Shown here piece after piece: positions 3,116 to 54,562 of a stretch of 64,000 nt of DNA (position 1 is its first letter; every line of letters begins with the position of its first letter). The translations under genes were made by a program, and so were the position numbers. The DNA is from Phlebopus portentosus. Taxonomy: Eukaryota > Basidiomycota > Agaricomycetes > Boletales > Boletinellaceae. The stretch spans positions 310,001 through 374,000 of the forward strand of contig JAYXKI010000020.1 in NCBI GenBank assembly GCA_037892935.1, written 5' to 3'. Below the pieces are notes generated by a model that saw nothing but the letters and a program-made list of their open reading frames with translations, did no database searches and had not been told where the DNA came from.

Positions 3116-3359
3116 CTTGATAGGCTGGGGGTGGAACGGGGATCGGGATGGTGTTCGGACGGGACCGACTTCGGATGATCGGCTCGTCTTTAAAATTGAC
3201 GACTAGACGAAAGGCACCGAGGTAGATGATGAACGAGATACTTGATGAGGATTGGACTCTATGCGTCACCCACGAGAACGTCTGATGGGAGTTCCAAAGA
3301 AGGGTGATTCTGAGTGCCACGTTGACGATAGTGTGGATAGGGGTCTGGAACTGGACCGT

Positions 3360-4988
3360 TGAAACTCCTGTGGACGTTCTGATGCCGGACAGGGAGTGTA
3401 TAGTTCGAGGGGCTGCCCTAGAATACCTTCAAACGGTCAGCAGAGAATTACACCCGAGCTAAGGGCACGAAGGAGTGGAGGGAAATAGGGATAGGCAATG
3501 GAAAGGCTTGGTGAGGACCGGGGATATGAGGGAAGCGCTCGAGGAGGAATTCCGAGGGTAGGCTTCTCCCGAGATCGACGGTGGCGGTGCAAAGGCAAAA
3601 TCGACTCTCCGGCTCAGCTGCGAGCTCTGGACTAAAGCCGACTAACCCAAGGCACAAGAACTAAACTAACTAGGCTACGCTAGTCGAACCACCAACCCGA
3701 ACGTGACTAATCGACTGTGCTAACACACTGGTAAGCGACTGCAGCCGATCTCACTCGTAGTCTAAAGTGTCGGAACGCGGCGTAACGATTCGAAACGCGA
3801 TACGATGGACGAAAGGCAATTGCTGAGTGTATCGAAATGTGATGCGAGGGATGGAGGTGCAAAACGATGACGGAAGGGGACTGAGAGAATCGAAGGATAT
3901 GTGTGGGACGATGAAACCGACCGTTTCCGATCGAAACGATGCGGAATAGCACCGGGCTGGTCTTGAGGAAGCGGAGAGTGGAAAGTCAAGAGGAAAGGGA
4001 TGATATGGTGTCCTTTCCCGACGACAATGGAGAGGGGAAGGTGTTGCGAGACCGAATGCGAGTGGCACGCAGAGTAACTGGGTTACGAACGAAACCGGGC
4101 GAAACGGATCGAAACACGTGAGGGGGTCTTGTTTCGGGTGAGAGAAGATAGAGAAGCCTTTATACGATGACGGCGAACTATACGAACGCGCGAACGGCTC
4201 TACTGCGAAGAGAGATCACCGATCGACTGTACAGAACACGAAATGTCGTATATTAGACTATAGAGACGAGAGAGTCCACTACGAACAAGTAGACTAGAGG
4301 TCGAGAGGCTTTGAGACGATGTGAGAACTGCAAGCTAAGCTCCCCACTCAGCTCCCACTAAGCTGTCCCTCTACTACGAGAGTCGTGCTATATTTATACT
4401 AAACGTCCAAGACTGAGCCTCCCAGCGGTCAGAGAACCTACGTCATAAAGAAAAGGGAACGCATATCGCTATCTACAAAGGAGAGGAGCGCATAGGAATG
4501 GTTTAAGGGACACATAGGTCAAAAGAAACAATACTAAGCATGTCTGGAACGAGAGCATAATGGATTAAAGGGGACGCATATAGAAAGGTCAGAAAATGTG
4601 CGGAACCTTCGGAACCGGGTCTCTTTGAGCGGAACGAAGCGGAACTCGGGGAAACGACTCGGAAGGGCTCTGGCTAGCCTGACAAAGTAAGTCTGCGATG
4701 TTTAACAAAGGAGAGGGACTGAGGACGAGGTTGCAGGGTCAAATCTCTTTGTCTGGAATGCGGATCCGAGGTCCGGAGACTTGTGATCGACGCGTGCAAA
4801 CTCGATGCCGTGATTCTCCCGTCTTGATGGCCGATCAAAGAACGGTGCACGTGCCATCTGGACTATGGCGTTCTTGCTAAGTTCACTCGTTCGAGCGAAA
4901 CCAGTCGAAACCGAGCGAAACCAGTCGGAACACCGCGGAACTGGTCGTAACGACTCCGTACGTTCCCAAGCTTCAGACTTACTCTTCA
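3360..4988 (-). repeat. 3' LTR of the nested element
   Basis: It is a direct repeat of 13570-15198 at an offset of 10,210 bp. The boundaries are TGAAACTCC and ACTCTTCA on the plus strand. Clusters of CGRAAC-type hexamers at exact or near 10-bp spacing lie at 3771-3796, 3912-3947, 4090-4115, 4601-4665 and 4896-4951. It lies immediately upstream of the antisense gene at 5117, so it could serve as that gene's promoter (inference). Small ORFs inside it occur identically in both LTRs and are not called. Confidence 0.95.
4896..4951 (+). repeat. Phased array of CGRAAC hexamers, 10-bp period (six units)
   Basis: CGAAAC begins at 4896, 4906 and 4916, CGGAAC at 4926 and 4936, and CGTAAC at 4946. Each unit is a hexamer plus four variable bases. 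It lies 37 bp from the LTR edge and about 166 bp upstream of the ATG of the antisense gene. The exact 10-bp period puts all sites on one face of the helix. Confidence 0.85.
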
Positions 4989-5116
4989 TCTCCCGGGTTC
5001 ATGAAATAGTGACCGTCCGCGGTCACTCCCATCTCAATCCGACGCGTGGGAGTTTCGAAGCATAACGCGTCGCGTCCAAATTTTCTTCCGCTGTCATCTC
5101 TTCTTCATTCTTCAAC

Positions 5117-6641
5117 ATGTTCACTTCCGAAGAAATCGTCGCGCTCTTGGGACCCATCAACTCCGATGACGACTGGAAGGCAGCGGTCGCGAAATTCGAG
5201 GCAGACGTCGCCTTGGCCAGGTCGGCAATGGATGAACTAGACCATGGCGTCACGACGGTAATTCTGCCGGATAAGACAAAACCGGTCGAATGGATCGCGC
5301 CTACAGGTTCGATGACGGTTCGGTGGTTGACGAATCCGGTGATGGAATCTTTGATGGATGGGTGGAAGGCAACCACGGTGCGTAAACCGCGCACTCTAAT
5401 CAAGAATTTTTGTTAACGAAATTCGACAGGCACGGAAGGAAGCGTTGGAGCAAGTCCGTCCCAAAGGAACGAAAGAAGTCTGGTCGGAGACGGCGTACTC
5501 CAACTACTGCGACACGGACGCTCTCCTACGGACGCTGTACTACGATCGACGGGAATTTTACGCCAGGATGGAGACCAAACGACGAGCTTTCTTCCGCAGA
5601 CGCAGGGTTCCATTCCATCCTGCCTCGTTCGATTCGACTCGTGGGTTCTTCTTGGGCGAATCGTTCCCTCCAATGTTCCCGAAACCGCGCCCTGACATCG
5701 AAAAGGCTCTCGAGAACGTGAGAATGGAGAGCTCCAAGTTCCAACAAACGGCGAGGTTCACCGGCAGCACAGACTTCACGCGAGACGAAGCTGTCCGGAG
5801 TCACGTAGGTACTTCTTCTTGTCTATCATCTCCATCTAATCCTTCCTACAGCAAGCGTTCGAATATTGGGAGGATATCGAGCAACGACACCTTCGTGCAG
5901 GGCACATCCTTCGCATCGACAGGGTGAAATTGAGAACGGTCCGGCTCCTCTGGGAATACTACGGCTATTCCATCCTTCGTCGTCGGCTCTATCAACTCAT
6001 TCGTGCTCAGGAATCCGAAACGCAACAACAACAACAGCAACAACAACGATCCCAACAAGTGCTGTCTGAACCTTTCTCTCAACCGCAACAACAACAGCAG
6101 CAACAACCAATGCTGCCTGAACCATTTCCTCCGCAACAACAACAACAGCAGCAACATCAAATGCTGCCTCAGGACGTCGATAGTCCAATGGAGGTTGATT
6201 CCGCTCCTCTTCAGGTCGAAACTGGCGAAATGATTGAGGACGGAGAGGTCGCGGAACCGGTCGAAACGCTCGAAACCGGAGCGGAACGTTTGGAGGGGGC
6301 TAGCCGTTCTACACCCTTAACCTCACTCGAACCTACAATGCTCGAGATTGAGCTTCGCGAGAGTGAAAGACGAGAAGAAGAAGAACGCGCTGCTCAACGC
6401 GCCGAAATCTCCCGGATGGCTGCCGAAATCGAGGCCAACATGCGACGACGACTGGATGCAGGGACTCGCCGCGTTCGTGGTGTTCGGCAAGTGGTGGACT
6501 CGGACGAGGAGACTCCTGCGATTCAGGAAAGTCCTGAGAGTCCTCCTCCTGGTCATCGGGGAGAAGACTCCGTTATCATGAGTCCGGGCGACGGCGGAAT
6601 GGATATCGGTGATGTGGGAATGGAGGTGACGACAACGATAA

Positions 6642-6674
<33 letters not shown>

Positions 6675-7188
6675 TGGTGACGAACGATTGGGCGATGGGC
6701 GCGTTCGTCATCGGGTTCCGTGCGACCAGTGCCAGAAGCGTGGCCGTGATTGCGTGGGTCTTCCGCAGAGGACCTGCGCTCCGTGCTTGAAGCAGGCGAA
6801 GGGCTGTAGTCTAGCCACGAAGGGCAGGGCTGTAGCCGCAAAGCGTAAGGCAGCTCGGGAGGCGCGCGATCGGGACGCAAAACGCCGGAAAGTCACGGCT
6901 CTGGCGGCCAGATCAGTGGGTGGTCGCGTCGAGCATGAAGCTCTGCAGCGGGAGGTCGGGGAATCCGAGCTGCAGTTCGTGCTGGCGCGGATGGATCACC
7001 GGGACAAGGTTCTGTCCCGGATGCTGAACGAATTCAGCGTCCTCGTAGCGCAGGCGCACGCGGATCGTTGTCTGCTGCTCGAGTTGGCTGGGGTGAAGAC
7101 GGGGGAAGGTGAAGACGAGGAAGAGGAAGATAGAGGGGAAGTGGAGAGGGTTCGTCAGTCGAAGGGGAAAGGTAGGGCTCGGGAATAG
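5117..7188 (+). CDS. Antisense accessory gene of the nested element: spliced polyQ protein with a C-terminal Zn2Cys6-type cluster
   Basis: The gene starts at ATG 5117 (MFTSEEIVALLG). Two introns restore phase: 5378-5429 (52 nt, GTGCGT...GACAG) and 5805-5851 (47 nt, GTAGGT...CTACAG). Exon 3 encodes polyglutamine tracts (about 6019-6160) and an E/R-rich helix. A frame change is then needed near 6610-6640: the upstream frame degrades into a Thr run, while the next frame gives an acidic Asp run and continues to 7188. This may be a frameshift or an unresolved intron. The C-terminal frame has cysteines spaced CX2CX6CX7CX2CX6C with basic residues between them, the spacing of fungal Zn(II)2Cys6 DNA-binding clusters, followed by a Lys/Arg-rich stretch and an acidic tail. 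The N-terminal domain is not recognised. A nuclear DNA-binding role is inference. Confidence 0.75.
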
Positions 7189-7634
7189 AGTATAATCATC
7201 GCGTATGCTCTATGTCCTGGTCGGACTTTTGTAAAATAGAAAAAGAAAAGGACAAAAGAAAAAGAAAAATAACTTGTACTGTACATAGTTGTTTTTATAG
7301 TTAATTTATACGATTTTGTTTCGGTTTTTGTGAATTTTCGTGCGATCGAGCGAGACTGAGTGAAGACTAGAAGAATAGATCAAAGAATTCAAGGAATAGG
7401 ATGAAAGGAAACTGATACGAAGTGAATTGAGGCGTTTCGCCGTCGTTCCGCTGTTTTGAACGGCGAAACCGTGCGGAACTGCGTATTAAGTGAAAGTACA
7501 CGCGTTAGATCCTATTGTGGATCACGCTAGCAGAGACGAAACTATAGAAGGAGAATTGGAAGATTAGAATTGATCAGAGGAGAGAGAGAGAATCGGAAAT
7601 AAGTAAGTAGCATATATGAAGGGAAATGAATGAT
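7189..7634. other. Non-coding gap between the convergent antisense gene and pol
   Basis: No ORF is supported here. The segment is A/T- and purine-rich (AAAAAGAAAAGG-like tracts at 7230-7270). It probably holds the 3' ends of both convergent transcripts. A CGAAAC/CGGAAC pair at exactly 10 bp lies at 7464 and 7474, with GTTCCG at 7445. Confidence 0.6.
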
Positions 7635-10600
7635 TTAATCGGAATTTTGGGGCTCATCGTCAGGGAATTTCTCTGGCGAATCTTCTATTTCGGGTATGTC
7701 ATCATCTTCGTCCGATCCAATGAGCTTGGTCACCGGAACAGTCAGATGCGAACGCGGGAAGTACGGAACCAGGCGAAACGCTGCTATTCGGAGTTTCGAA
7801 ACCGCTCCATCGAGTTCGGCGACGATATACGAACCGCCTTGGGTGCGTCGAACTACCACGTAGGGGCCTAAATAGCGGGGTTTCGTTTTACGATTGAGTT
7901 CCATCTTGATACGCGTGTTTCGCAAGAGTACGAGGCTTCCTGGCTGAAAGTCGTAGTCCTTGATTCTATGCTTCTCCACCTCGGCGAACTGCTTCGCGTA
8001 TGCATGCCTTGCACTCATGACGAGTTTCGCAACGCGATCCAACTCTTCTGGACGTTTCTGGAGTTGTTTCGCACGTATTACGATGAGTTCCGACGTCGTA
8101 ACTGGCGAATCGAGCGGCGGTGCTAGGTATGTTGCTTCTGCGAGGTCGAAAGGCAAAACTGCTTCGACTCCATGGGCCATGTAATACGGGGACATTCCTG
8201 TCGCTCTGTTGATCGTGATTCTTTCTGCCCAAAATACCGAGTCAGCGTGATCACTCCAACGCTTGTCATTACCGTCTGCAGCTTTAATCAATGCTTCCTG
8301 TACGTCGAAATGTCTGCGTTCGACTAATCCATTTGCGCGTGAGTTGTATGACGAAATTCGAATGTGGTTGATGTGATACCGCATCTTCAAGTAATCTAGC
8401 GCGGCAACGAATGGTGTGCCGTTGTCGGTAACGAGTTCGGGGCATGCTCCATATCGACACAAAAGGTTCTGGAAGATAAACTGGCCTACGGTCTTACCAG
8501 TTTCTTCACGAAGAAGTCTAAATTCGGGATACGCGGTTAACGAACAACGCGCATGCACGATATACCGGAATCCACTCGATTTCGGCATAACCTTCGAGTC
8601 AATATGGATGCGTTGAAACAGAGGGGCTACCTCCGGTACGTTTGGTGGGATAAGAATATTCTTCGTCTGGCGTATCTGGCACTCATGACAGGTGCGCACG
8701 AAATAGTTCACGTCCTGTCCTAATGACGGCCACCAAAATCTTTCCAGCAGTCGCATTCGAGTGCAGAAAATTCCTTTGTGTCCTAGATCGTCGTGAGCTT
8801 GCTTGACTAGGTCCCACCTGCGTTTCGCTTCTATTACGACTTGGTGCCGGCCGTTCCGCGCCTTTCTCCACAGACGGCCTCCCTTCACGAAGAAGTCAGC
8901 TGCGTACCTGATTAGCTTCGCATAGCCACTATCGCTAAGATTGTCTGGGCGTGTGAGATGCGTGATTAGCTTCGTGACGTCATCTAAGCGGCTATCCTTC
9001 CTTCTCGTGGATTCCGTAGAAGGAAATAGGTTCTCTGTCGCTGTTTCGCTAGGTGTTCCGCCCTGTTGCGCTACTTGGTATGTCGAAACCGGCTCTTCTA
9101 TCGCAAAACCGTACGTTTCGTCTACCCAGTCTTCGTACGTTTCATCCGGAGGGGGGTCTTCTTCAGCTGCTCTTCGTCTGGATAATCCATCGGTACATCG
9201 GAAATCGGCTGCTGGGATGTGTCTGAGCTTGAAACTGAAGAGAAGGATACCTGCGATCCATCTGTTAATGGTCGCATTGGGCTGCAGGTCGGGATTGTTG
9301 ATCATCCCCTTGATGTATGCTGCGTCCATTTCGACTACTAGATTCCGGACTCCGATGAGATACAGTCGCATCGCGTGCAATGCTCGAAATAAGCTGTATA
9401 ACTCGATTTTCGGCTGTGAATACGATGCCTGGGTCTGATTCCAGTTAATAGAGCCGAAACGATTGATCCTTCGCCTTCCATCCGAGTGCTCTTGTCCTAA
9501 ATACCAACCAACTCCAATAATAGACGAGTCTACCGCCAATATTACTTCGTTATCCGACGCGTAGTCAATTGCGCACAGCGCGGGGCAAAGAATAACGGCT
9601 TGCTTTAGTTCGTCCATTGCGTTCTGTTCTTCGTCTGTCCACGCGAAAATCTGGTTCTTCCTTGTCATACGGTACAACGGGCGAGCGAGTTTCGAATAAT
9701 CCCTGACGAAAATCCGAAGGACTCCTACCGTTCCCAGAAATCCTCGGACTTCCGTCAACGTTCTACATGGCGGCCAATCTCGTATCTTCTGTACTTTCGA
9801 ATCGTCTGGCTCGCGTCCCTGGTATGTCAACTTGTGTCCCACGAATACGGCTGACTCCACACACGGAACCAACTTCTTTCCTGAAAACGTTCCTCCTACG
9901 GCCTTCATTCGCTGCAAAATTCTGTTCACATCGCATATATGCTCATACACGAAACGACGAATCTCGGAGTTTCCCGGTATGGTCTCGTACGAACCGTCTG
10001 GTAACTCGTATCGCGATTTCGGACCTAAACCGGGCGCATCGTCTGCGAAAGGGTTCGTAACGTGCGGAATCTCGTCCTGAAGGATAAAGGCCACGTCGTT
10101 ATGCATAATCTGCAATGAATTGGTGTATCCCATTGGTAGAACCGTCATTCGAAATGTTCCCAAGGGTGTCTGGAACGTAGTAAGATCTCGTGAGTGTTCG
10201 TCAAGCTTCCTTTGGTCGAATGCAACGAATAAATCCAACTCCGTGTAACAAGCTCGTCCTCCACTGCTCTCCGCGATCGTTTCGACGTTCGGTGGTACTG
10301 CCGAGTCCTTGACCGTAACCGCATTAAGATCCTGCAAGTCGATAATGGATCGTAACGTTTCCTTGTCTTTCTTTACCAAGCAAAACCATCTAGATCGATA
10401 CGACGAATTCGACGGTTCAATAACCCCGTTGCGAATCTTCTCTCGAATAAGCTCGAGGGCCTTGTCATGAATTCCCGGGGGAATTGGAATGCTCTTGTGC
10501 TGCCACGGTATATGCGGTATCGTGGGAATGCGTATCGGGTCGAAATACGTCGGATCGAGTGTTCCGCGTTCGGATTCGGTCCATGCTAATGCTTCTTCCT

Positions 10601-11147
10601 GCAACATAATTAGATTCTTCACTAACAACCTCTCCGCCGGCCACAGAAAGGTATTCTCGTCGATCTTCAGCGCTTCCATCCTTTCGGCGGTTACACGACC
10701 CGTGGGTTCGAACGGCTTCGGTACAACTGGCATCTCGGGCATCCCTCTCAACGGATCCGGATGCTGCCTTCGAACAATCCGGTACTCTTCTGGAAGGACT
10801 CCCGGGATCGGCCTGACTTTCTGCGCTACTCGTTTGTAAGCCATTACTGCCGCGTCTTCTTCTTCTGGGGTTTCTAAAACACATGAACGATAAGACCGTT
10901 CTTCTTTGTCAGTAGTATAGCAATTTTTGTTCAATAAATAAGGCAATCGTTGGTTGAAAAGAGATGGGATCATGTGTGAAATAAATTCGAAATCATAGGA
11001 AAATACCTGAACCGGCAATTGGTTACTACCATTCTCGTCTCGCCGATTTCTCTCAATCAGTTCCTCGACGCTTGCGGAAAACCCTTTGGAAGTGGTCCTC
11101 GCGCGATCGTTCGAATTCCGGTGGCCACTTTGCTTTGCTTTCTGCAA
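7635..11147 (-). CDS. pol: Pol of the nested element: reverse transcriptase, RNase H, integrase
   Basis: This is an open frame of 1,170 codons in -1 relative to gag and overlapping it by about 90 nt. The upstream end is set by frame openness rather than a proven start, since entry by frameshift at 11078-11084 is likely. RT has Asp in TELDL (about residue 305) and a catalytic box FADD (367-370) in place of YxDD, followed by a roughly 30-residue insertion. RNase H acids are D540, E582 and D608. Integrase has an H785/H790/C820/C823 zinc module, catalytic D850, D908 (VTDNG) and E943 (LVERR), and a GPY module near 1094. There is no chromodomain. Residues about 47-92 come from an AT-rich, intron-like stretch. 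No internal stop is seen, so it may be active. Confidence 0.9.
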   Translation of the reverse strand: MQKAKQSGHRNSNDRARTTSKGFSASVEELIERNRRDENGSNQLPVQVFSYDFEFISHMIPSLFNQRLPYLLNKNCYTTDKEERSYRSCVLETPEEEDAAVMAYKRVAQKVRPIPGVLPEEYRIVRRQHPDPLRGMPEMPVVPKPFEPTGRVTAERMEALKIDENTFLWPAERLLVKNLIMLQEEALAWTESERGTLDPTYFDPIRIPTIPHIPWQHKSIPIPPGIHDKALELIREKIRNGVIEPSNSSYRSRWFCLVKKDKETLRSIIDLQDLNAVTVKDSAVPPNVETIAESSGGRACYTELDLFVAFDQRKLDEHSRDLTTFQTPLGTFRMTVLPMGYTNSLQIMHNDVAFILQDEIPHVTNPFADDAPGLGPKSRYELPDGSYETIPGNSEIRRFVYEHICDVNRILQRMKAVGGTFSGKKLVPCVESAVFVGHKLTYQGREPDDSKVQKIRDWPPCRTLTEVRGFLGTVGVLRIFVRDYSKLARPLYRMTRKNQIFAWTDEEQNAMDELKQAVILCPALCAIDYASDNEVILAVDSSIIGVGWYLGQEHSDGRRRINRFGSINWNQTQASYSQPKIELYSLFRALHAMRLYLIGVRNLVVEMDAAYIKGMINNPDLQPNATINRWIAGILLFSFKLRHIPAADFRCTDGLSRRRAAEEDPPPDETYEDWVDETYGFAIEEPVSTYQVAQQGGTPSETATENLFPSTESTRRKDSRLDDVTKLITHLTRPDNLSDSGYAKLIRYAADFFVKGGRLWRKARNGRHQVVIEAKRRWDLVKQAHDDLGHKGIFCTRMRLLERFWWPSLGQDVNYFVRTCHECQIRQTKNILIPPNVPEVAPLFQRIHIDSKVMPKSSGFRYIVHARCSLTAYPEFRLLREETGKTVGQFIFQNLLCRYGACPELVTDNGTPFVAALDYLKMRYHINHIRISSYNSRANGLVERRHFDVQEALIKAADGNDKRWSDHADSVFWAERITINRATGMSPYYMAHGVEAVLPFDLAEATYLAPPLDSPVTTSELIVIRAKQLQKRPEELDRVAKLVMSARHAYAKQFAEVEKHRIKDYDFQPGSLVLLRNTRIKMELNRKTKPRYLGPYVVVRRTQGGSYIVAELDGAVSKLRIAAFRLVPYFPRSHLTVPVTKLIGSDEDDDIPEIEDSPEKFPDDEPQNSD

Positions 11148-13450
11148 TCGTTCGGGTCCGTTAAGGTGATATGTTGGTCACCTGACGTGTAATCCTTCGT
11201 TTCGCACTCCGTAATAGCGAAAAACGGTCTCCCCAACAAAGCCTGGAAGGGAGCGTTCGGAACGACTTGCACTTGGAGCGAAACGTCAATCCCGGCTATC
11301 GTGAACTTCGCATTAGAGATCATGCCAATGGTAGATGACCTAGCTGCGTCTGCTGTCTCGAGGATCATTCCTTTGTCAGGGGAAAGGGGTATCTGAAGCT
11401 TCTCCCATACGTCTTCGCGGAGCAGACATACTACGGCTCCCTGGTCGAGCACGCATTCGACTTCCAGAGTGTCTTCAATCAACGCGCTAACGGTCCTGAG
11501 GGGCATGGATGCCTCTGCGGCGACGCCTTGTCCACTGAGCGCCAGTATTTCTTCCGTCGAAAGCGTTTCGCTTGTTTCGACTTGTTCCGACGCGAAACGC
11601 CCAACTTGTAACGTAAGTGAATCATCCACGACCTCACCATATTTGACTTCAGCCGCGTTGTATCTCTTCGCCGTCGTCAACTCCTTCATCTGTTTCCTAA
11701 CGTCCGGGGCGATTGAGAGGAGTTCACGTTGGCTGATGGTGATAGGGGTATCGAGGGTACGAGTCAGAACGTTGGAGACTGCGCTCGAGTCTTCTATTGG
11801 TACGACGTATTTATACTGGGGTTGTGATTTCCTGGTAATGTCGTCCTGCTGCGGTGATTGGAGTGACCTTGTCGAGGGCCGCGCGCCACTCGGTGGCGCG
11901 GGCTGCGGTTTCGCCTGCGCCTTCTTATGAGGCTGAACTCTAGGAATCTCTACGCCATCGGGCTTCGTTCTTCGTCCACCAGCTGCCTTCTTCTTCGCCT
12001 CGTTAATCAAAATCTCCAAACGTTCGATGTCGTAGTTTTCCTGCTCGTCCTGATCTTCTTCGTCGTGACTATATGCGTACGCTGGACCAGCTTGATGGCT
12101 ATATGCGGACGTGACCGACTCGACCATCCCTACTGTGTGTGTCGCCGGGGCTTTAGCATGAAAGCTATCGATTCGTTCTTTGAGATTGTTCCCCGGTAGC
12201 GACCTCGTAATGAGACCGCCGTTCGGCAACACAATCCTTCCATCCTGGCTCCTAACGCACTTTCCGGCTTGGATGTACTCGAGAACCTTCGTACACGATC
12301 GAATATAGTGTCCTGCTTCGCCGCAGAAGTTACAAACTGGGTTCCGCGGGGTTTCGCTACGTTCCGCCCCTGGTCGATGCGGAACGTTCCCTTTGCTCAG
12401 GGCGTCGAGCGTAACCTGGAAACTCTTCAACGTATCCATTACCTTGGCCAAATCCACTTCTTCCTTCTTTACGATACTTGTCGAAGCTTCTCCGGTAGCC
12501 GGGGGTGGAAAGTTACTGCCGAAACTGCCCACAATCTTTCCTCCCAGCACGAAATTCGAATGTTCGAGCACGTCCTTAATCTTGTAAGGCGTAGACGAAT
12601 CGTGGTCTGGTAGCTTGATCTCGATACGACGAATGAGCGCCTCTCTAAGGTCTCCTGTAATTCCCATCAGGAACATCTCGTCAGCTTGGGACTCCAAGAT
12701 CTTTCCGTTCGTTATAAGATACTTAGAGCGCCTGACGAATTCTCGATGATATTCGCCTAAGTCTTCTCGGTTCTTGATCCCTTTCTTCGCCCGTTCTACG
12801 ACCAAATGCTCCAGTTCTCCCTTGGAGTAGCGTTTCCCTGCCGTGAGACTCGGGTATAGAGCTATAATCTCTCTCTTCACCGTCTCCACATCAGGGTTCG
12901 GGTCGTTAATCTCGTCGGTAGTCTCCCAAAGTTCCGCGACGTCGGTCTTCGCATAGTACAAGAACTTTCGGACGTGATCTCTATCGTTCCACGCGGCCTG
13001 TCTTGCGATTTCTGCAACGTCTTCGAAGAACCTAGGGAGTTCCTTTGGTTCTGAGCCGTCAAACGTTGGGGCACGTTTGTCCCCACGCGAGGGCGGTTGG
13101 TACGCCATTGCGGTTTGTCGATTTGTAAGTTGTTGTAATACGTTAGCGTTAGCAGACAGACGAGCTATTATCGCTGCGTTGCTGGCTAAGATCTGTTGAG
13201 TTCCGGTAGGTAGTTGGTAATTGGTAGGCGGGCTAGCTGGTCTGTTCGGCGAGCCTGGGGTGGAAGCTGGCACAGATGAGAGGTTGGGGAGTTCTGAATC
13301 GGCGATGGTAGATGGGGAATGATCTAGGGAATCGGTGTTGGAAGGAATGGCGCTAACGGATTGTCGCAAGGGTGTTTCGCTGTGTTCCGCGTTTTCCGCA
13401 GCGGAACGTAAGTTGCGATTGACAATCCTCGGCCTTCGAGTCGGCGGCAA
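11057..13450 (-). CDS. gag: Gag-protease polyprotein of the nested element
   Basis: This is a 797-residue open frame from ATG 13450. Residues 1-120 are low-complexity Ser/Pro/Thr. A Ty3-type capsid domain follows (about 125-300), then a CCHC knuckle (C373, C376, H381, C386). A Lys/Gln/Pro linker leads to a retropepsin-like domain around D669-Q670-G671, ending in a conserved LLGRPFF motif. Gln replaces the usual Ser/Thr of D[ST]G, which may be a family trait. The frame ends at 11057, 18 nt past the heptamer GGGTTTT. Confidence 0.9.
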   Translation of the reverse strand: MPPTRRPRIVNRNLRSAAENAEHSETPLRQSVSAIPSNTDSLDHSPSTIADSELPNLSSVPASTPGSPNRPASPPTNYQLPTGTQQILASNAAIIARLSANANVLQQLTNRQTAMAYQPPSRGDKRAPTFDGSEPKELPRFFEDVAEIARQAAWNDRDHVRKFLYYAKTDVAELWETTDEINDPNPDVETVKREIIALYPSLTAGKRYSKGELEHLVVERAKKGIKNREDLGEYHREFVRRSKYLITNGKILESQADEMFLMGITGDLREALIRRIEIKLPDHDSSTPYKIKDVLEHSNFVLGGKIVGSFGSNFPPPATGEASTSIVKKEEVDLAKVMDTLKSFQVTLDALSKGNVPHRPGAERSETPRNPVCNFCGEAGHYIRSCTKVLEYIQAGKCVRSQDGRIVLPNGGLITRSLPGNNLKERIDSFHAKAPATHTVGMVESVTSAYSHQAGPAYAYSHDEEDQDEQENYDIERLEILINEAKKKAAGGRRTKPDGVEIPRVQPHKKAQAKPQPAPPSGARPSTRSLQSPQQDDITRKSQPQYKYVVPIEDSSAVSNVLTRTLDTPITISQRELLSIAPDVRKQMKELTTAKRYNAAEVKYGEVVDDSLTLQVGRFASEQVETSETLSTEEILALSGQGVAAEASMPLRTVSALIEDTLEVECVLDQGAVVCLLREDVWEKLQIPLSPDKGMILETADAARSSTIGMISNAKFTIAGIDVSLQVQVVPNAPFQALLGRPFFAITECETKDYTSGDQHITLTDPNDCRKQSKVATGIRTIARGPLPKGFPQASRN
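11078..11084 (-). promoter_or_regulatory. Candidate programmed -1 frameshift heptamer G GGT TTT (nested element)
   Basis: On the minus strand the gag codons read AAG GGT TTT CCG, which fits X XXY YYZ. Slippage by -1 enters exactly the pol frame, and the gag stop follows 18 nt downstream. The same heptamer followed by CCG occurs at the gag/pol overlap of chromovirus copies B and C. Confidence 0.65.
12341..12366 (-). repeat. Phased hexamer triplet embedded in gag coding sequence
   Basis: On the plus strand GTTCCG starts at 12341, GTTTCG at 12351 and GTTCCG at 12361. This is the reverse complement of CGGAAC/CGAAAC at exact 10-bp spacing, inside the gag frame next to the zinc knuckle. Further pairs at 10 bp are at 7464/7474, 7764/7774 and 13374/13384. 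Confidence 0.75.
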
Positions 13451-13550
13451 AACCTGATGTTCTACAGGGACTCGAGCGGATTGGCTACGTGTAACTCGTC
13501 TGCTAGACGAATTTGGCGGGGTATTCGTAATGGTTGGACAGTGAAATCCC

Positions 13551-13567
13551 CCTCGCCGTGGGCTCCA
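13551..13567 (-). promoter_or_regulatory. tRNA-type primer binding site of the nested element
   Basis: Two bases inside the 5' LTR the minus strand reads TGGAGCCCACGGCGAGG. It starts with TGG, complementary to a tRNA CCA end, and the implied tRNA has C at position 61, as expected. The tRNA species was not identified. This element therefore appears to prime from a tRNA, unlike chromoviruses A-C. Confidence 0.55.
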
Positions 13568-13569
13568 CT

Positions 13570-15198
13570 TGAAACTCCTGTGGACGTTCTGATGCCGGAC
13601 AGGGAGTGTATAGTTCGAGGGGCTGCCCTAGAATACCTTCAAACGGTCAGCAGAGAATTACACCCGAGCTAAGGGCACGAAGGAGTGGAGGGAAATAGGG
13701 ATAGGCAATGGAAAGGCTTGGTGAGGACCGGGGATATGAGGGAAGCGCTCGAGGAGGAATTCCGAGGGTAGGCTTCTCCCGAGATCGACGGTGGCGGTGC
13801 AAAGGCAAAATCGACTCTCCGGCTCAGCTGCGAGCTCTGGACTAAAGCCGACTAACCCAAGGCACAAGAACTAAACTAACTAGGCTACGCTAGTCGAACC
13901 ACCAACCCGAACGTGACTAATCGACTGTGCTAACACACTGGTAAGCGACTGCAGCCGATCTCACTCGTAGTCTAAAGTGTCGGAACGCGGCGTAACGATT
14001 CGAAACGCGATACGATGGACGAAAGGCAATTGCTGAGTGTATCGAAATGTGATGCGAGGGATGGAGGTGCAAAACGATGACGGAAGGGGACTGAGAGAAT
14101 CGAAGGATATGTGTGGGACGATGAAACCGACCGTTTCCGATCGAAACGATGCGGAATAGCACCGGGCTGGTCTTGAGGAAGCGGAGAGTGGAAAGTCAAG
14201 AGGAAAGGGATGATATGGTGTCCTTTCCCGACGACAATGGAGAGGGGAAGGTGTTGCGAGACCGAATGCGAGTGGCACGCAGAGTAACTGGGTTACGAAC
14301 GAAACCGGGCGAAACGGATCGAAACACGTGAGGGGGTCTTGTTTCGGGTGAGAGAAGATAGAGAAGCCTTTATACGATGACGGCGAACTATACGAACGCG
14401 CGAACGGCTCTACTGCGAAGAGAGATCACCGATCGACTGTACAGAACACGAAATGTCGTATATTAGACTATAGAGACGAGAGAGTCCACTACGAACAAGT
14501 AGACTAGAGGTCGAGAGGCTTTGAGACGATGTGAGAACTGCAAGCTAAGCTCCCCACTCAGCTCCCACTAAGCTGTCCCTCTACTACGAGAGTCGTGCTA
14601 TATTTATAATAAACGTCCAAGACTGAGCCTCCCAGCGGTCAGAGAACCTACGTCATAAAGAAAAGGGAACGCATATCGCTATCTACAAAGGAGAGGAGCG
14701 CATAGGAATGGTTTAAGGGACACATAGGTCAAAAGAAACAATACTAAGCATGTCTGGAACGAGAGCATAATGGATTAAAGGGGACGCATATAGAAAGGTC
14801 AGAAAATGTGCGGAACCTTCGGAACCGGGTCTCTTTGAGCGGAACGAAGCGGAACTCGGGGAAACGACTCGGAAGGGCTCTGGCTAGCCTGACAAAGTAA
14901 GTCTGCGATGTTTAACAAAGGAGAGGGACTGAGGACGAGGTTGCAGGGTCAAATCTCTTTGTCTGGAATGCGGATCCGAGGTCCGGAGACTTGTGATCGA
15001 CGCGTGCAAACTCGATGCCGTGATTCTCCCGTCTTGATGGCCGATCAAAGAACGGTGCACGTGCCATCTGGACTATGGCGTTCTTGCTAAGTTCACTCGT
15101 TCGAGCGAAACCAGTCGAAACCGAGCGAAACCAGTCGGAACACCGCGGAACTGGTCGTAACGACTCCGTACGTTCCCAAGCTTCAGACTTACTCTTCA
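13570..15198 (-). repeat. 5' LTR of the nested element
   Basis: This is the mate of 3360-4988, with one mismatch seen over 1,629 bp. It should contain the promoter for the minus-strand gag-pol transcript. The phased hexamer clusters recur here at +10,210. Confidence 0.95.
15106..15161 (+). repeat. Second LTR copy of the phased CGRAAC array
   Basis: This is identical to 4896-4951 at an offset of 10,210 bp. In this LTR the array sits near the upstream edge of the gag-pol transcription unit. Confidence 0.85.
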
Positions 15199-15564
15199 CC
15201 GTTGATACGAACAGGGACTAGGCAGCCTTCCTTATTCTGACCAAAGACTATGTCGTTCGGATCGATGTTACCTAGGCTGATCTGGTCTTGAATGTCTGCC
15301 CAAGGTACGACAAACCTCTTTGGCTTTACGTAAGGTCGTCGGCGGGGTTGATAACGAGTCTGGTAGCGAGTCGGAGCCACAGTGATATGATTGTTTCGGG
15401 AAGTATCGGGACACGTCAAAGTCAGTCAGACCTTGATGGGCAAGATAGGGGTTGCTCGGATAAATCCGGGATGGGCGCGGTCGTCAACCGTCGATGTGTC
15501 TCCTGCGTGGAGTAGCGACAAACGAGTGGTTAAACCACGGGTTCGAGAGTAGGTCTTTCTATTA
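15199..15564 (-). other. Copy A primer site and 5' leader, cut by the nested element
   Basis: Just inside the 5' LTR of copy A lies the leader, which resumes at 3359 on the far side of the nested element. An open frame (15419 to 15189, no ATG) matches the leader frame of copy B at 48287-48565, with mostly conservative substitutions (K/R, D/E, I/V). The match is lost exactly at the insertion point. A second leader frame (3320-3102) overlaps the gag start. Whether these frames are translated is not known. Confidence 0.7.
15553..15563 (-). promoter_or_regulatory. Self-primer binding site of copy A
   Basis: One base separates this 11-mer (minus strand AATAGAAAGAC) from the LTR end. It is perfectly complementary to an 11-mer inside the same LTR (plus 15738-15748), where the transcript is expected to start. 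The same arrangement occurs in copies B and C. No match to a tRNA 3' end beginning TGG is present. Confidence 0.7.
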
Positions 15565-26829: not shown

Positions 26830-26994
26830 TACAGGTGGGTACAAAAAGTCTTTGGCCCCCCTGTTTTAGGAAGGTGATTTGCATGCCTTCTCGGGAAACG
26901 AACACCCGTGCCGACATTGAGCAAGTACCATACATAGCATGCAAATCCTCCTTCCATAAACAGGGGGGCCGAAGACTTTTTGTACCCACCTGTA
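26830..26994. mobile_element. Tc1/mariner-type MITE, left arm
   Basis: It is TA-flanked with inverted ends beginning CAGGTGGGTACAAAAAGTC and closing with the complement. The inverted repeats extend past 40 bp with a few mismatches, through a GGCCCCCCTGTTT block. It is 161 bp without the TA and non-coding. It is consistent with a mariner-family MITE moved in trans. Confidence 0.8.
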
Positions 26995-27324
26995 GAACAA
27001 GATACGTTACGTACACAGATATATGCATTTCTGTGTAGATCACCCAACATAAAAGTCCGTATAGTTTTGTCTAGCTGACGTGGTGCTTGATTAGATTTTG
27101 AGAGTTGATATATAAAAACTAGACTAGATCTGTATAAGCGAACTATGTAAATCTACACAGATCTACGCATGCGAGACTGTGAGTGACGAGGTCAGACGAA
27201 CTTAGATGCATTTTGACGTGTCGTCCTCTTTGTCTCTTGCCACCACTAGTACTGTCATGCCACTCTATCCACCCCCAGCACCTACAAATCATCTCCGTCC
27301 CTGCTTCATCCACCTCATTTATGA

Positions 27325-28602
<1,278 letters not shown>

Positions 28603-29691
28603 GATGACCGACAAGTCAAATTTCATCACCATCACCAACGACAAGGGATGTCTGTCCAGTGAACGCAAGCAAGGTCAAGAAGGCTGAGCAATTCAAGGCT
28701 GAAGATAAGGCCGAGGCTGCGCATTCATTTGTTGTGGAACTATCATCTAGAAAATGGGCTCAAATATGTTTTCGATAATTTCCTAATAAAGATTTAAATT
28801 TACATAAATGGAAATCAGATTTTTTTGGGTGTTGCGCTAGAGAGCATAAATATACGGGAAATATATGACAAACTACACAAAACTACACAAAACTACACAA
28901 GACTACACAATTGAGCCTAAGTGATACACACAAAACTACGCAGATGGTCTTTTTAGCAGAGCTAGATGGTTCGTGCTAATCCTGAAAGTTCAGGAACTTA
29001 CAATCTAACAGCGAATCCGTGTAGGTAAGCTACATTTCCCATATAGTCGGGTGTTTTGTCTCTTAACAGCAGACTACACGGACCCGTGATAATCGTGTCA
29101 ATACACAGTGACTCTCAGAAGCACAACATCGCTTCAAAAAAAATATATAGACTCTTACAGCGTGTTCAGAAAACCTTGACAGTCACTGTGTATTGACACG
29201 ATTATCACGGGTCCGTGTAGTCTGCTGTTAAGAGACAAAACACCCGACTATATGGGAAATGTAGCTTACCTACACGGATTCGCTGTTAGATTGTAAGTTC
29301 CTGAACTTTCAGGATTAGCACGAACCATCTAGCTCTGCTAAAAAGACCATCTGCGTAGTTTTGTGTGTATCACTTAGGCTCAATTGTGTAGTCTTGTGTA
29401 GTTTTGTGTAGTTTTGTGTAGTTTGTCATATATTTCCCGTATATTTATGCTCTCTAGCGCAACACCCAAAAAAATCTGATTTCCATTTATGTAAATTTAA
29501 ATCTTTATTAGGAAATTATCGAAAACATATTTGAGCCCATTTTCTAGATGATAGTTCCACAACAAATGAATGCGCAGCCTCGGCCTTATCTTCAGCCTTG
29601 AATTGCTCAGCCTTCTTGACCTTGCTTGCGTTCACTGGACAGACATCCCTTGTCGTTGGTGATGGTGATGAAATTTGACTTGTCGGTCATC

Positions 29692-30969
<1,278 letters not shown>

Positions 30970-31299
30970 TCATAAATGAGGTGGATGAAGCAGGGACGGA
31001 GATGATTTGTAGGTGCTGGGGGTGGATAGAGTGGCATGACAGTACTAGTGGTGGCAAGAGACAAAGAGGACGACACGTCAAAATGCATCTAAGTTCGTCT
31101 GACCTCGTCACTCACAGTCTCGCATGCGTAGATCTGTGTAGATTTACATAGTTCGCTTATACAGATCTAGTCTAGTTTTTATATATCAACTCTCAAAATC
31201 TAATCAAGCACCACGTCAGCTAGACAAAACTATACGGACTTTTATGTTGGGTGATCTACACAGAAATGCATATATCTGTGTACGTAACGTATCTTGTTC

Positions 31300-31464
31300 T
31301 ACAGGTGGGTACAAAAAGTCTTCGGCCCCCCTGTTTATGGAAGGAGGATTTGCATGCTATGTATGGTACTTGCTCAATGTCGGCACGGGTGTTCGTTTCC
31401 CGAGAAGGCATGCAAATCACCTTCCTAAAACAGGGGGGCCAAAGACTTTTTGTACCCACCTGTA
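31300..31464. mobile_element. Tc1/mariner-type MITE, right arm
   Basis: This is the mirror copy of 26830-26994. Its outer TA at 31463-31464 is the last paired position of the palindrome. Confidence 0.8.
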
Positions 31465-47595: not shown

Positions 47596-47874
47596 GTAAT
47601 TGTAAGGACTTGAACATTTTCTTTCATTTTCTTTCATTTTCTTTCATTTTCTTTTATTTTCTTATATCATCTCTCGCTTTATTTTAATTTACTCCACCCT
47701 TCTTTTACATTACTAATCCTCATTTACTAATTCCGTTCTCTCCGTCGTGGCTTATTCATCCTCAGTCATCAGCCATGACTAAATCCGCTCCTTCCGACCA
47801 TGACGCTCACTAATCACTCCACTATTTGACATGTGACTTTTCTATTAGAGTAGATCCTTCACGCGCTCGAAGTC

Positions 47875-54068: not shown

Positions 54069-54562
54069 TGTAAGGACTCGAACATTTTCTTTCATTTTCT
54101 TTCATTTTCTTTCATTTTCTTTTATTTTCTTATATCATCTCTCGCTTTATTTTAATTTACTCCACCCTTCTTTTACATTACTAATCCTCATTTACTAATT
54201 CCGTTCTCTCCGTCGTGGCTTATTCATCCTCAGTCATCAGCCATGACTAAATCCGCTCCTTCCGACCATAACGCTCACTAATCACTCCACTATTTGACAT
54301 GTGACTTTCCTATTAGAGTAGATCCTTCACGCGCTCGAAGTCTATATAAGTAGATAGTTTGACTCTTTCGTTTCCTTGTCTTTCTATTCTACTTACCTTC
54401 ACTTCGACATAGGTATCTACTCTTGTATTAATAGTTTATTGAAATTCTACTTACCTTCACTTCGACATAGCGTGCGTATAGCCCGGCAACTCGCGTTAGC
54501 CAGTTGTTTGTTGTTGTGTTGGCCGCCTCGAGACCGACGCCCGTTAGTCTCGCCGCCTAACA
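54069..54562 (+). repeat. 3' LTR of copy B
   Basis: It is 494 bp and matches the 5' LTR except for four transitions that I could see. It is followed by the target duplication GTAAT. Confidence 0.95.

Follow-up and report, generated by a model that had tools for sequence, protein, structure and literature searches.

We examined a 64,000-nucleotide window of the Phlebopus portentosus genome (contig JAYXKI010000020.1, C20:310001-374000, in a 38.4-Mb assembly of 23 contigs that also served for the genome-wide counts). At positions 3360-15198, this window holds a long terminal repeat (LTR) retrotransposon, a member of what we refer to as family 1, in which the word CGNAAC recurs at spacings of about one helical turn and which carries, antisense to gag and pol, a gene for a putative zinc-cluster protein (aORF). 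LTRs, DUF4100, protease and zinc knuckle, RVT_1, RNase H and Integrase_H2C2 follow one another in order on the minus strand, as is characteristic of a Ty3-type element; no Pfam row for an integrase core was returned for its pol. An earlier sequence-only reading of the window, which had drawn attention to the word, overlooked both the minus-strand gag-pol and the antisense gene. The element is made up as follows.

3360..4988, minus strand: 3' LTR, 1629 bp, one base apart from 13570-15198, flanked by a CCGT duplication
5117..7188, plus strand: antisense gene (aORF) between pol and the 3' LTR, predicted to bear introns
5117-5377, 5430-5804, 5852-7188, plus strand: predicted aORF exons, with GT..AG borders
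6721..6807, plus strand: Zn2Cys6-type cysteine cluster, C-x2-C-x6-C-x7-C-x2-C-x6-C, near the C-terminus of the aORF protein
7635..11147, minus strand: pol, with reverse transcriptase, RNase H and integrase zinc domain
11057..13450, minus strand: gag-protease open reading frame, with DUF4100, aspartyl protease and zinc knuckle
13570..15198, minus strand: 5' LTR, 1629 bp, pairing with the 3' LTR

The two LTRs differ at one base and therefore count as one observation. The 4-bp target duplication CCGT stands at 3356-3359 and 15199-15202, and the insertion lies within a different element. Target sites at nine of nine elements, including members of a sister family (family 2, described below), are 4-bp NCGN sequences with a central CG (CCGT, ACGT, GCGC, ACGG, GCGT, TCGG), and the duplications match in six of the seven elements with both flanks visible, the exception being the family 2 copy on C6 (TCGG and GCGT); the integrase may prefer CpG at its target sites. 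The observed/expected ratio (O/E) of CpG is 1.31 in family 1 (window 3360-13569) and 1.28 in the family 2 copy on C10, compared with 0.96 in 48 kb of the window. Family 1 copies are clustered on several contigs (for example C1:1.91-2.35 Mb, C6:0.07-0.52 Mb, C8:1.43-1.77 Mb, C12:0.17-0.26 Mb) and, to judge from copy positions alone, these clusters resemble the centromere-like clusters of fungal retrotransposons.

Excess and helical phase of the CGNAAC word

CGRAAC is enriched about 2-6 times in the LTR, gag and pol. The LTR has 16 sites on both strands against 2.7 expected (1000 dinucleotide shuffles, maximum 9), and seven exact 10-bp pairs of CGRAAC against none in the 1000 shuffles. The sequence-only reading had counted about 14 sites on the plus strand of one LTR, close to the 15 found there (one further site is on the minus strand); its chance expectation of about one site is better put at about 1.4 per strand. 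CGAAAC is the most over-represented hexamer of all in family 1 (43 vs 10.5 expected) and CGGAAC the third, and in the family 1 interior CGCAAC and CGTAAC are near expectation. Among 4096 one-gap hexamer classes, CGNAAC ranks first for 10-bp pairs, with 18, followed by GCGNAA, a class overlapping CGNAAC, with six. A G or T precedes the word at 77% of the sites in family 1 and 84% in family 2. The arrays and pairs in the window element are the following.

3771..3796, plus strand: LTR array of three units at 10 bp, CGGAAC, CGTAAC and CGAAAC; copy at 13981
4090..4115, plus strand: LTR array of three CGAAAC at 10 bp; copy at 14300
4601..4645, plus strand: LTR array of four CGGAAC, starting at 4601, 4610, 4630 and 4640; copy at 14811
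4896..4951, plus strand: LTR array of six units at exactly 10 bp; copy at 15106
6252..6287, plus strand: four CGRAAC within aORF exon 3, at spacings of 10, 9 and 11
7464..7479, plus strand: 10-bp pair between aORF and pol
7764..7779, plus strand: 10-bp pair within pol
11565..11589, minus strand: three GTTYCG within gag, at spacings of 9 and 10
12341..12366, minus strand: 10-bp triplet within gag, recurring in other copies
13374..13389, minus strand: 10-bp pair near the gag start

All 25 positions named in the sequence-only reading carry the unit given for them or an imperfect one; its coding pairs are correctly placed, and the one at 13374/13384 is in reverse orientation as well (GTTTCG, GTTCCG), which had gone unmentioned. 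The array at 4896 is situated about 165-220 bp upstream of the aORF ATG.

Same-strand distances between CG[AGT]AAC sites in the element peak at 10 (17), 20 (9) and 30 bp (7). The fixed 10-bp phase that had been proposed describes nearest neighbours; beyond them, the peak is a broad one at 10.25-11 bp, and the best of eight periods tried was 10.5 in both families (pairs 6-105 bp apart; 58 and 22 distances). Under a jitter null, a phase as strong as that observed at period 10 arose 0 times and once in 1000. Between 10-bp neighbours, 1.17 of the 4 spacer positions agree in family 1 (n=18) and 1.75 of the 4 in family 2 (n=8), and the unalike spacers of family 1 led us to reject tandem duplication as the main origin of the arrays; one 20-bp duplication is found within the array at 4896.

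Excess and pairing extend to coding sequence, where they were compared with 1000 codon-preserving shuffles: gag has nine CGAAAC (3.0 expected), nine CGGAAC (1.7) and four 10-bp pairs of CGNAAC (0.25), and pol has 15 CGAAAC (4.7) and two such pairs (0.04). With CGRAAC alone, pol has one 10-bp pair, equalled in 35 of the 1000 codon shuffles. In every listed 10-bp coding pair the units are in different reading frames, as 10 bp demands. Two losses had been named beforehand as decisive, that of the 10-bp peak under shuffling that preserves codons and dinucleotides and that of the hexamers in other family members; neither was seen. The proposal that selection acts on the DNA besides the protein is supported, because excess and phase survive codon-preserving shuffles, because the units of coding pairs occupy different reading frames, and because family 2 has the same core and phase, mostly at other places. 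Opposite-strand sites show a phase too (distances 9, 19, 29, 39) in gag (5 vs 0.15 in codon shuffles) and pol (2 vs 0.05), and none in pol2a, pol2b or either aORF; this observation is post hoc, since it was chosen after the distances had been viewed.

Genome-wide, CGRAAC triplets at 10-bp spacing number 221+229 = 450, with 2+0 for the reversed pattern, and none occur at 9 or 11 bp. By eye, 99 of the 100 listed among the 450 have the spacers of three arrays of the window element, the exception being a simple repeat at C2:3162546. The 450 triplets are copies of a few arrays and hence reflect fixation in the family, not 450 events. The main controls, namely 48 kb of the window, 47 kb surrounding the family 2 loci and a Ty3 element of 6.8 kb that lies in the window, contain no 10-bp pair and have O/E of 0.4-1.4 for the four CGNAAC words; a smaller control, 26830-31464, has four CGCAAC and four CGTAAC (2.1 and 2.0 times) and likewise no 10-bp pair.

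The word in a second Ty3 family

The zinc part of the aORF protein matches 91 places in the assembly, 67 of which belong to family 1 (77-99% identity) and 24 to family 2 (28-37%). Six of the latter were examined as full elements, and gene order, read in the copies on C10 and C13, is the same as in family 1. Each of the six measures about 11.5 kb, is bounded by LTRs of about 1.34 kb and has an antisense frame of 401 aa that contains the zinc pattern. Protein identity between the families is 53% in gag and 72-77% in pol, and their LTRs align in short pieces only. The family 2 antisense protein also has older remnants, at 55-73% identity, at C18:832049, C10:1593908, C4:298591 and C2:1788124, and these could hold further versions of the word.

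In the C10 copy, the most over-represented hexamer is CGCAAC (27 vs 5.8 expected); CGGAAC is raised (27 vs 8.1), CGAAAC is at expectation (11 vs 9.7), and CGNAAC is again the first class in 10-bp pairs, with eight. Counts of CGAAAC and CGCAAC are 43 and 8 in family 1, against 11 and 27 in family 2 (Fisher p=1.8e-7); restricted to gag plus pol, they are 24/4 vs 8/19 (p=3e-5). These p-values serve as guides, since the sites of one element depend on one another and the shift happened once in evolution. A family 2 site coincides with nine of the 49 family 1 sites in gag and pol, the other 40 being without a counterpart. In the family 2 LTR, eight units form a mirror arrangement, at spacings of 10, 10, 10, 9, 10, 10 and 10. 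Genome-wide, the family 2 word CGCAAC-CGSAAC is found at 92 places at 10 bp (reversed pattern 13), many of them one recurrent family 1 site together with a family 2 site that, being palindromic, enters the count on each strand, and at 32 places at 11 bp (reversed 7), 19 of which share one recurrent spacer.

The antisense protein as candidate reader of the words

Splicing and expression of the aORF are predicted from sequence. Its exon joins are the same as in the annotated Sanghuangporus sanghuang protein P0001, and in the sister family the matches of P0006 split into three blocks. Being antisense to the genomic RNA, the gene would keep its introns through retrotransposition. Exon 3 of the window copy shifts frame within a low-complexity linker; at 27 of the 67 family 1 places, the match is free of stops in an open frame of 478-539 aa. 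Six cysteines are invariant in both families plus two other species, with spacings of 2-6-7-2-6 in family 1 and 2-6-7-2-7 in family 2, both of which fit the zinc cluster pattern of fungal Zn2Cys6 proteins, C-x2-C-x6-C-x5-12-C-x2-C-x6-8-C. The cluster is followed by a predicted basic helix and then by predicted long helices that could dimerise.

The zinc part shares 97% identity with annotated hypothetical proteins of S. sanghuang and 86-87% with their counterparts in S. baumii and S. weigelae, which, as far as one protein family can tell, suggests a host within or near Sanghuangporus (Hymenochaetales). Protein searches, which scored at least 7986, at least 7995 and 3467 candidates, gave relatives in Sanghuangporus only among the matches listed (at least five, at least one and one proteins), so that comparison is limited to two lineages. 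A sequence search of the PDB with the family 1 zinc piece returned four solved chains, all of them Zn2Cys6 proteins with weak E values of 0.5-6, one being the centromere protein CBF3 subunit B (E 6). A PDB profile search with the whole alignment gave two chance-level matches only (E 4 and 5.2), in a glutamine-rich part. The aORF protein shares with the fungal Zn2Cys6 factors (Pho7, LAC9/GAL4 type, HAP1) the six-cysteine spacing, and their targets are CG-centred; it differs from them in that its zinc cluster is near the C-terminus and is without a Pfam match, and in the PDB alignments the first half of its cluster pairs with the second half of that of Pho7, and the reverse. Pho7 reads TCG(G/C)(A/T), a site resembling the CG[C/G]A of family 2, and altering the CG abolishes its binding (PMC5559640).

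The CGNAAC words are very likely selected protein-binding sites, and the protein that reads them is probably the element's own, a suggestion founded on sequence. On balance, we favor an interpretation in which the words are sites of the antisense Zn2Cys6-type protein, bound cooperatively, through which the element is turned or kept on. The target of the protein would be a word centred on CG, [G/T]CG[A/G]AAC in family 1 and [G/T]CG[C/G]AAC in family 2; with sites spaced by about one turn of the helix, several molecules would come to lie on one face of the DNA and could bind cooperatively, and the bound protein would mark the LTR and body of the family's copies. A CG-centred word in helical phase whose third base shifts between families is what an element-encoded Zn2Cys6-type factor would be expected to select. 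The likeliest job of such a protein would be that of a VANC-like anti-silencer or of an LTR trans-activator serving all copies; of the parts of this interpretation, action in trans by anti-silencing or activation is the one we hold most tentatively, with the chances slightly below even.

Several observations weigh against this interpretation. The zinc domain found no match in a Pfam scan, fold searches gave no significant match, and a PDB sequence search with the family 2 zinc domain gave none. CGGAAC is raised weakly in pol (7 vs 4.0 expected in codon-preserving shuffles, p=0.09). The third-base shift is a single event in a comparison of two families, across the genome the family 2 word is not confined to 10-bp spacing, and the units of the family 2 LTR, mostly CGTAAC or CGATAC, depart from the body word, so that the LTR word looks looser than that of the body. 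Finally, polymorphism among copies is not significantly lower at motif positions (22 LTRs, namely the window's two and 20 others; 30 aORF regions, namely the window's and L010-L038, with the three less similar loci L018, L026 and L034 retained), a result that speaks in particular against cooperative binding at phased sites. CpG positions are the most polymorphic among copies, and pooled CpG polymorphism is, if anything, higher in the motif (0.0432 vs 0.0399; Fisher p=0.09). Pooled non-CpG polymorphism is 0.0168 in the motif vs 0.0231 (Fisher on polymorphic sites p=0.73) and, in the LTR alone, 0.0046 vs 0.0135 with too few polymorphic sites. Given that inserted copies drift, the polymorphism result neither supports nor refutes the interpretation.

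Alternatively, a host transcription factor may bind the sites, which the element would exploit as an enhancer, and the antisense protein would have some other role. Use of host factors is common among LTRs. Host factors of the Zn2Cys6 type do read CG-centred words (PMC5559640); however, the two families prefer different third bases in one host, their sites are scattered through coding sequence, and another Ty3 element in the window is without them, which makes this alternative unlikely. We give somewhat less credence still to the idea that the element protein binds the arrays to tether the integration complex to existing copies, to mark cDNA or to attach to centromere-like clusters. The closeness of family 1 copies on several contigs and the presence of CBF3 subunit B among the four weak PDB matches are in keeping with it, but the window copy lies in a different element and the targets at nine elements are NCGN rather than CGNAAC arrays. 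A neutral origin, by 10-bp tandem slippage or from base composition (CpG richness), is very improbable: the 20-bp duplication at 4896, the partly repeated spacers of family 2 and the raised CpG ratio would suit it, whereas the spacers of family 1 are unalike, coding sequence has an excess of isolated sites too, the excess stands against shuffles preserving dinucleotide or codon content, and CGCAAC and CGTAAC are near expectation in the family 1 interior. Signals for rotational nucleosome placement or DNA bending, with no protein dedicated to reading them, fit the broad phase peak and the best period of 10.5 but are the least credible explanation, such signals being dinucleotide-based while here one six-base word is prominent and switches its third base between families.

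Related systems and other repeats

Binding of the words by the element's own antisense protein would resemble, in working principle, the VANC/VANDAL system of Arabidopsis, in which a transposon-encoded protein is paired with a dense short family-specific word in the same element, and in which related families differ in word, word and protein changing together (PMC5735166, PMC10398659). VANC strips silencing marks from its own family (PMC5735166, PMC10398659). Self-recognition of this kind is matched here in part, by an element-encoded protein and a family-specific dense word within the same element. The differences are that VANDALs are DNA transposons and the present element is an LTR retrotransposon; that the word of VANC21 is described as one of nine bases, mainly non-coding and in tandem repeats, whereas here a CG-centred hexamer in helical phase is found in gag and pol also; and that VANC21 binding is reported as proven by chromatin immunoprecipitation and electrophoretic mobility shift assay, whereas the candidate binder here is recognized by its zinc-cluster pattern.

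Antisense retrotransposon genes between pol and the 3' LTR are already known in plants and fungi. The plant aORF-3R genes of Grande, RIRE2 and Retand are extra antisense genes in this place (PMC7264820), and brtn of the Boty-like elements in Botrytis has the same place and orientation. Some aORF-3R products are nuclear, and a 2020 review calls their roles undetermined; according to that review, aORF-3R proteins bear no clear similarity to others, and for the terms searched it makes no mention of DNA binding (PMC7264820), unlike the zinc-cluster pattern and candidate word found here. The TET/JBP dioxygenases, also of mobile elements in Agaricomycetes and likewise proposed to be anti-silencing, are carried by DNA transposons and are enzymes, not sequence-specific binders with a cognate word (PMC12730594). 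A literature search among open-licence PMC papers retrieved no Zn2Cys6 antisense retrotransposon gene. In the present element, such an antisense gene shows a DNA-binding signature, and independently of it there is a very strong candidate target word, different in each of the two families; the long-standing question of the role of these genes thereby becomes testable by direct binding. If the antisense protein is indeed the reader, VANC-like self-recognition would extend from plant DNA transposons to fungal retrotransposons, and an unusual DNA-level code would be written through gag and pol. It is conceivable, though we would not presume it, that in this LTR retrotransposon lineage the zinc-cluster protein coats its own copies by way of phased words along the whole element and so prevents their silencing, protein and word co-evolving per family (A/G vs C/G) as a private self-recognition code.

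Two other 10-bp arrays were seen in the window. CATTTTCTTT forms a different tandem array of 4.9 copies with a 97% match, located at 47615-47663 and 54083-54131 in the repeated ends of another Ty3 element; in contrast to the CGNAAC arrays, it is a true tandem repeat. The stretch used as the smaller control, 26830-31464, is a 2288-bp inverted repeat with 100% complementary arms 59 bp apart, either a mobile element or an assembly artefact, and has 10-bp arrays of AAACTACACA at 28870 and 29384.

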